Shown: positions 2,331 to 3,461 of the stretch, piece after piece
Layout of the letters: every line of letters begins with the position of its first letter
How positions within the stretch are numbered: the stretch's first letter is position 1
Assembly (NCBI GenBank): GCA_028281005.1
Contig: JANQKS010000103.1
Location: 1 to 59,925, forward strand
Direction: 5' to 3'
Length of the DNA: 59,925 nt
Source: Pseudomonadales bacterium
GTDB taxonomy: Bacteria > Pseudomonadota > Gammaproteobacteria > Pseudomonadales > Azotimanducaceae
Position numbers and translations under genes: made by a program
The notes under the pieces: model-generated
Databases searched by the model: none
Seen by the model: the letters and a program-made list of their open reading frames with translations, nothing else
Told to the model about the DNA's origin: nothing

Positions 2331-3461
2331 CTAAGCGCTGCGATTTATCATCGCATGCTGAGCAGAAGGGTATGCAGTGAGATTTAGCTCATCCTGCACC
2401 TGCCTCGCCATCTCGGACTCCAGGTTGTCATAGGGGATACCGATGGGATCAGCAATGCGCACCATACGCTGGAAGTTGGCCGCCACCCCGGCAGCGTCAA
2501 CCAGTACGGCTGGACCCGCGGCATCCAGTAATGCCTGCCGCGCAGTAGGCAGCGTTTCCTGATCGCGCTTCGCCACCGCTTCGGCAAACTGCATCAGCTG
2601 AGCACCAAACTCAATGCCTTGATCTGCACTGTCTAAGTCTCCGCCAATACCCTGAATGTTGACTGCGGTGTTGGTTCTCTGTGCGCTCGCACGGAGCATC
2701 GATGCATGTGCGTTGGTTCAGTAAAAACACTCATTAACCGCGGAGACTCTACCGGCCACCAATTCCATCTGTAACCGGTTAATCGCGCGGCTGTCGTCCT
2801 TGAAGTAATCGCGCATCTTCTCAAGCGCCAGATATTGCACCGCTGCAATTTCTCGCCACTCACGTAAAGCGTTAGGCACCAGGGTCAGCGCCCGTACTAC
2901 ATTCGCTGCAAAACCTGCTGGCCATAGGTCCGCTTCGTTACCCGCCGCGCCTGCGGGTGGCACCGTCGGCACAAAACCAATGTCTTCGCTGAGATTGGCG
3001 GGAGTGTATTGGCTGGTTTCACCCGGCTGCGGTTCAGGCAGCGTTTCCACCTCTATACCCAGCGCACGGTTAAACTCATCGATGCTGAACACAGCCACCA
3101 CAACACCAACCAATTCTACGTAGGCGGCTTTACTCAAGCCGTTGGTATCATTGTCATTGATGTATGTCTGCGTGATGCGGTTCTGATCGGTGACAACCCG
3201 GTGCACCGCATCCACGACAAGCTCCGGTAGGTTGCCGCTGTGGGTATGCTGGCCCGCAAAGGTATACGGTGAAAGCGCAAGTTTACGTGCCGCACAAAAC
3301 TCACAGGTGAGCGCGTTACGCGTTTCCTGCGCAATGGCGATACGTTCCGCGCCGGTCCACCAAGTACCCGGAGCGGCTAATTTTGCCCAGTACGCGCGAT
3401 ACGCTTCACCTATGTCCTCCCTGACGGGATAGGGGGCGTCTTGATAGCCAAAATACTTCAT
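2331..3461 (-). CDS. CMD/AhpD-like protein with in-frame TGA in a CxxU motif (candidate selenoprotein)
   Basis: Two reading segments (3461-2718 and downstream to 2331) are in the same frame and separated only by a TGA at 2718-2720. Read through, they give 376 residues of the carboxymuconolactone decarboxylase / AhpD-like family, thiol-based peroxidase-type proteins. A first CxxC is at residues 53-56 (CEFC). The second is C245-F-Y-TGA248 followed by T-N-A-H-A, where Cys homologues are expected to have CxxC with a downstream His. The TGA thus sits exactly on a redox cysteine position, as in selenocysteine proteins, and a hairpin follows it. AhpD-like selenoproteins are known from marine metagenomes. 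A nonsense mutation of a Cys codon or a sequencing error is the alternative. It lies 34 bp after the esterase gene and is probably co-transcribed with it. Confidence 0.75.
2677..2696 (-). promoter_or_regulatory. SECIS-like hairpin downstream of TGA
   Basis: On the transcript of the CMD-like gene, nucleotides 22-41 after the UGA fold as CUC-C-GUGC, a GAGC loop, then GCAC-A-GAG: seven base pairs with one C-A mismatch. The apical loop starts with G and begins 30 nt after the UGA, within the spacing and loop-G rules published for bacterial SECIS elements. This is a hand fold; a selenocysteine role is inferred. Confidence 0.5.

Follow-up and report, generated by a model that had tools for sequence, protein, structure and literature searches.

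A predicted selenoprotein of the NF041238 (AhpD_rel_CFYUT) family in a Pseudomonadales bacterium, with apparent Sec-only conservation, a conserved SECIS-like hairpin and a likely two-half AhpD-like architecture

A minus-strand gene at positions 2331..3461 of the window (the whole stretch of DNA that was analysed, 59,925 nucleotides) very probably encodes a bacterial selenoprotein of the NF041238 family, with an in-frame UGA at 2718..2720 taken as the selenocysteine codon. The frame opens with ATG at 3461 and closes with a TAG ending at 2331, and its sole interruption is the TGA at 2720-2718. Standard translation of the gene stops after 247 codons; reading of the TGA as Sec yields 376 residues with the motif N-E-C245-F-Y-U248-T-N-A-H252-A. 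The initial annotation had described two halves in one frame, split only by this TGA, and its coordinates, frame and motif are all confirmed. Thirteen TGAs in the window have long open frames on both sides (about 60 or more open codons upstream and 90 or more downstream), and that at 2718-2720 has the longest upstream frame, 267 codons, the next being 155.

The protein matches the NCBIfam model NF041238, an equivalog named 'alkylhydroperoxidase-related (seleno)protein', with 451.7 bits against a cut-off of 175, over positions 1-356 of 357. The CFYUT motif of the model is present as C245-F-Y-U248-T, with the UGA at U, and all 48 members used in the large alignments match the model at E 1e-10 or better. 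In a 2026 review, NF041238 appears with a CxxU motif under the name 'AhpD-related protein (hypothetical protein 1, Sargasso Sea metagenome)' (PMC13188914), the family is also listed in PMC9312934, and the Sargasso Sea paper of 2005 gave four hypothetical protein 1 sequences with CxxU and reported SECIS-like stem-loops for all of its new families (PMC1088965). The likeness of the window protein to hypothetical protein 1 consists in the full-length model match, CFYUT, CxxU and a downstream SECIS-like hairpin. Since NF041238 is equated with hypothetical protein 1, the prediction of this family and of its Sec dates back to 2005. The available text of these three sources gives neither function nor biochemistry for it. 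From its sequence, the gene is thus assigned to a catalogued and little-studied selenoprotein family.

Curated models of neighbouring families fit less well. The classical AhpD model TIGR00777 gives 13.8 bits against 191.95, the peroxidase-related enzyme model TIGR01926 gives 40.1 bits against a cut-off of 81.8, and the CMD model PF02627 gives 20.3 bits against a gathering cut-off of 23, PF02627 being matched by 46 of the 48 NF041238 members at E 0.01 or better. The AhpD-like and CMD-domain selenoproteins of the Sargasso and GOS surveys share CxxU in an AhpD/CMD context, but they form families of their own in the Sargasso table (COG2128 and Pfam02627), apart from hypothetical protein 1. The earlier proposal of a selenoprotein of the AhpD/CMD kind is supported by the NF041238 match, by the conservation of the TGA and by the Sec machinery of the host.

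The codon is TGA in all 99 homologous loci fetched, down to about 30% identity. These comprise 20 loci from an order sample and 79 from a search of genome contigs, in which the best 80 of 291 relatives gave 79 distinct loci; removal of three exact duplicates and five near-duplicates (>95% identical over a 350-base stretch) left 91 non-redundant genes. The counts are not independent, as most of the genome-contig records are titled as MAGs and many are related. Mean pairwise protein identity among the 48 homologues is 0.48 before and 0.48 after the TGA, with a correlation of 0.91. That the TGA is a real stop, in a pseudogene, through a sequencing error or between two genes, can be given next to no credence: standard translation does end at 247 codons, but the invariance of the TGA, the equal conservation on its two sides, the constraint on synonymous codons and the host Sec machinery all speak against it. 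Conservation of the TGA, the synonymous constraint and the equal identity on both sides likewise rule out chance, a pseudogene or a sequence error.

A Cys form was sought at several taxonomic ranges. The gene was found in 17 of the 390 genomes of the order sample, giving 20 matches at E 1e-20 or better with one TGA each. In the GTDB family of the host, 137 of 206 genomes have an NF041238 match, all 137 over the cut-off, and the 150 matches listed all contain a TGA (the position of the TGA in the gene not being part of the listing), two of them with one further stop. Matches over the cut-off in a class sample of 369 genomes came from the host only; 23 other genomes match the C-terminal part only, at E 1e-14 or weaker and without a stop. 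The host alone matches at E 1e-20 in a phylum sample of 398 genomes, and plasmids gave no match to the family at all. Thus, there is no Cys form among the matches at E 1e-20 in the order (390 genomes) or the phylum (398 genomes), nor among the 150 listed matches of the GTDB family. The initial annotation had pictured the TGA as standing for the second Cys of the motif; across homologues the TGA is upheld in 99 of 99 loci, whereas full-length Cys homologues were not found, the stop-free relatives being of the C-terminal half only.

The family therefore appears to be Sec-only in everything sampled, as judged from these genomes, and the use of the best 80 of 291 relatives leaves room for a divergent full-length Cys form. 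For hypothetical protein 1, the 2005 table has the figures 4, 7, 0 and 5 (PMC1088965), interpreted here as numbers of Sec and Cys forms in the Sargasso set and in genomes; no full-length Cys form was seen in the present samples. The Cys homologues counted in 2005 may be more remote than the relatives sampled. The host genome itself carries a second NF041238 gene with its own in-frame TGA (contig C13:34756-35754); this copy belongs to a distinct and well-supported clade with eight members. A few homologues, namely L110 (residue 147), L133 (residue 31), G1184:C108 and G1208:C1, have a further in-frame stop (TGA or TAG), which may be an error, decay or a second Sec.

The Sec machinery proposed as a check, namely selA, selB, selC and selD, is all present in the host genome. 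On contig C47, selA (110111-111199), selB (111250-113088) and tRNA-Sec (selC, 114505-114593) form one group, and selD (122409-123317) lies about 8 kb beyond. The tRNA-Sec has the anticodon tca and was found by ARAGORN as well. Between selB and the tRNA gene lies an opposite-strand ORF of 421 aa (L036:13104-14369), which presumably resembles a DUF222/HNH-type endonuclease. The selD match (locus L142) sits in an open frame of 731 aa, the model having 311 positions; the frame is possibly an Ndh-SelD fusion, a type of fusion mentioned in PMC2398784.

Co-occurrence of the gene with selB was also recorded. In the order sample, selB is present in 17 of 17 genomes with the gene as against 57 of 390 overall, a comparison uncorrected for kinship. 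When 50 of the 79 loci, picked without a fixed rule, were checked, selB was above the cut-off in 40 of the 50 genomes, four having no match at E 1e-40 and six a weaker or partial one; the ten without selB above the cut-off include the genome of one of the closest relatives (L063). Incompleteness of the genomes likely explains the missing selB. In one genome (G011), the gene and selB are about 1.8 kb apart on one contig, and in 4 of 80 neighbourhoods (L125, L126, L129 and L131) two neighbour clusters resemble selA and selB, as judged by eye from the genes of the host.

Downstream of the UGA, a conserved hairpin, GCUC-[CGUGN]-GAGC, was located at 2685..2697 on the minus strand, with its stem at nt 24-27/33-36 (numbering starts at the U of UGA) and, in the window gene, the loop C-G-U-G-C at 2689-2693. 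Its four pairs are possible in 89 of the 91 non-redundant genes, G occupies the second loop position in 90 of 91, and the gap from UGA to loop is 24 nt. This SECIS-like core agrees in loop and distance with the bSECIS rule of a G at either of the first two loop positions and 16-37 nt between UGA and loop (PMC13188914); the window sequence alone folds best into another hairpin. Synonymous constraint, scored over the 91 genes against their own codon usage, is concentrated at codons +6 (z 25.6), +8 (46.8), +9 (28.2), +10 (26.7) and +11 (32.6), the remaining scored codons from -22 to +22, except -1, being at z 7.3 or below. Base pairs 25-35 and 26-34 are invariant across the 91 genes; pair 27-33 is C-G in 87, U-A in three and U-G in one, and pair 24-36 is G-C in 74, G-U in 15 and an unpaired U-U in two. 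Covariation is slight because the pairs are nearly invariant, and the case for the hairpin therefore rests on the synonymous constraint.

Folding gave a similar picture within short stretches. The lowest-energy fold of nt 18-42 contains the hairpin in 90 of 91 genes as against 312 of 3640 synonymous controls, and its energy is below the mean of the gene's own controls in 82 genes and not below it in nine. In the consensus fold of all 91 genes, the four core pairs have a probability near 1; a longer SECIS stem was rejected, as this fold gives nt 23-27/33-37 only. Single-sequence folds keep the hairpin in 75 of 91 genes for nt 15-45, in 35 for nt 4-50 and in 34 for nt 4-60.

The window gene is the only one of the 91 whose nt 18-42 fold lacks the conserved hairpin; whichever stretch of this gene was folded, the lowest-energy structure did not contain it. 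Here it competes with a more stable overlapping hairpin, GUGC-[GAGC]-GCAC, at 2681-2692 (-5.1 vs -4.9 kcal/mol for the conserved hairpin in nt 18-42; -7.8 vs -5.1 kcal/mol in nt 21-44), and the single-sequence fold of the window is no better than shuffles (z -0.20). As the conserved SECIS, GUGC-[GAGC]-GCAC was rejected, its pairs being possible in 17 of 91 genes as against 89 of 91 for GCUC-[CGUGN]-GAGC. It is probably the hairpin meant in the initial annotation, which had placed a hairpin with a G-starting loop at SECIS spacing; a conserved SECIS-like hairpin does exist, but the G-starting one was probably drawn in the wrong register.

The codon immediately 5' of the UGA is also constrained. 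Of the 91 genes, 89 use UAC for Tyr247 (2721..2723, minus strand; z 60.8), whereas UAC accounts for 331 of the 711 remaining Tyr codons in these genes, and for 42 of 130 in the 15 genes below 50% GC. The consensus fold of the 91 genes contains no pairing partner for this UAC. The base after the UGA is A in 90 of 91 genes, largely because the Thr is conserved. The preference for UAC before UGA may reflect a decoding-context effect.

Structural modelling was carried out with AlphaFold2 and 48 homologues, resulting in a model of pLDDT 92.4. The top 16 Foldseek matches of the whole model in the PDB are of AhpD type, Bmp8 and CMD proteins included, with a best E of 0.012. The fold of the C-half resembles solved AhpD-type structures (Foldseek probability 1.00 to 2prr, TMt 0.67, E 0.012), and its sequence matches 6k40 at E 2.2e-13, in an alignment that places U248 opposite the second Cys of CVYC. 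H252 (2706..2708, minus strand) is invariant in 48 of 48 members, and the CxxU-xxx-H spacing equals that of CxxC-xxx-H in the aligned AhpD 6k40. The peroxidase-related AhpD proteins of TIGR01926 (6k40, 3c1l and 2prr) thus share with the C-half CxxC-xxx-H and the subsequent helices, but they are Cys-based and have chains of about 190 residues.

The N-terminal half carries the motif C53-E-F-C56 (3294..3305, minus strand), both Cys being invariant in the 48 aligned members, as are H87, C245 and U248; H72 is nearly so. Modelled alone, the N-terminal 151 residues reach pLDDT 93.8, and their top 14 Foldseek matches are of AhpD type, with probability 1.00 to 2prr and 6k40; the best E is only 0.026, at TMq 0.52-0.59 and rmsd 7-9 A, and no match of the whole model or of the N-half reaches E 0.001. 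The profile search found no significant sequence relative of the N-half in the PDB, and profile comparison gave no significant sign of an N/C duplication (probability 1.1). The models point to a likely architecture of two AhpD-like halves, of which the first carries CxxC and the second CxxU; with an N-half that has no significant PDB relative and halves that do not align as profiles, the tandem reading is likely but unproved.

The confidently predicted N-half, with its invariant C53, C56 and H87, would also suit a selenium-responsive switch, in which low selenium leads to a 247-residue protein with only the N-half CxxC complete and a function of its own. This is distinctly unlikely, as such a product would keep about 95 residues of an incomplete C-half and its separate function finds no support here; the idea is compatible with the main explanation, a full-length selenoprotein.

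For the full-length selenoprotein, a Sec-dependent peroxidase or thiol oxidoreductase is the most likely function, and its reaction is likely AhpD CxxC-His chemistry with selenium at the second position. That second CxxC position is peroxidatic in M. tuberculosis AhpD. In the proposed mechanism, SelB with Sec-tRNA would bind the hairpin 24-36 nt downstream and insert selenocysteine at UGA248, an insertion that we infer here. In the product, C53xxC56 would lie in the N-half, and C245xxU248 and H252 in the C-half, both halves being AhpD-like and helical. H252 and its neighbours would activate the Sec248 selenolate for attack on a peroxide, most likely an organic hydroperoxide; C245 would resolve the selenenic acid as a Se-S bond, which a thiol system of the cell would then reduce; C53/C56 may serve in this step as an internal relay. 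A peroxide as the substrate is favoured with modest confidence, and the relay role of the N-half is put forward tentatively. Since the curated AhpD, peroxidase-related and CMD models score the protein below their cut-offs, what supports the peroxidase assignment is remote similarity together with fold and motif. The AhpD-like protein of D. radiodurans is reported to protect against H2O2 in a CxxC-dependent manner (PMC8945050).

The same selenoprotein might instead serve disulfide reduction or electron transfer, as an AhpD-type adaptor reducing a peroxiredoxin or an Ohr/OsmC partner. AhpD is described as an electron donor for AhpC, in C. glutamicum also for OsmC, and as being reduced in turn by lipoyl systems (PMC8945050); the presence of CxxC and CxxU in one chain would suit a relay. 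This reading is rather unlikely, as Sec at the second motif position would favour attack chemistry, and inspection by eye of the 25 most widespread neighbour clusters in the 80 neighbourhoods revealed no gene for a peroxiredoxin, Ohr or a lipoyl protein.

At the window locus itself, the gene is preceded on the same strand by a carboxylesterase gene (PF00135), whose end is 34 bases from the start codon, and is faced on its other side by a convergent gene of the prolyl-oligopeptidase type; the carboxylesterase gene clusters with one other locus and the convergent gene with none, and no neighbour there defines a substrate. Four genes of the window were scanned with Pfam, the neighbours elsewhere being named by eye from cluster representatives. 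No conserved operon was found, and no neighbour is widely shared: the most widespread cluster was seen in 11 of the 80 neighbourhoods, and its distance from the gene varied. At L105, L114 and L115, a gene resembling a PQQ-dependent dehydrogenase by eye lies 58-70 bases downstream on the same strand.

The structural search also brought up the debrominase Bmp8 (6ohi, 6ohj), at ranks 9-11 with TMt 0.64-0.67 for the whole model, which would accord with a reductive dehalogenase whose Sec attacks the halogen of a halogenated metabolite, as in thyroid deiodinase. Bmp8 is, moreover, the sole AhpD-type PDB match of the N-half profile (14 bits, E 0.31, not significant), and some host record titles indicate marine samples. 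A dehalogenase is nevertheless very unlikely: peroxidase-related AhpD structures rank above Bmp8, and Bmp8 is absent from the nine sequence-level matches of the full profile. Bmp8 shares the AhpD-like fold, but at 16-17% identity over about 180 columns only, and it catalyses another reaction. Bmp8 works with Cys. It is not named in PMC12025243. A bolder version, held to be highly improbable, is a strictly Sec-dependent two-domain AhpD-type enzyme with an inviable Cys version, as its reaction would need selenium: Sec248 would attack a halogen or another weak electrophile in the manner of a deiodinase, the N-half dithiol would reset the site, and UAC-UGA would reflect an extra need for efficient Sec decoding.

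To a family predicted since 2005, the present analysis adds its apparent Sec-only conservation, the correction of the conserved hairpin together with the limits of that hairpin, the preference for UAC and a predicted architecture of two halves. Cysteine versions are said to exist for nearly all selenoproteins (PMC13188914). A family that is Sec-only in all that was sampled suits the question of what selenium does beyond sulfur, and with its near-invariant UAC it also lends itself to a simple test of how the codon ahead of UGA affects Sec insertion. With members in 137 of 206 genomes, the NF041238 family is common in the GTDB family of the host.
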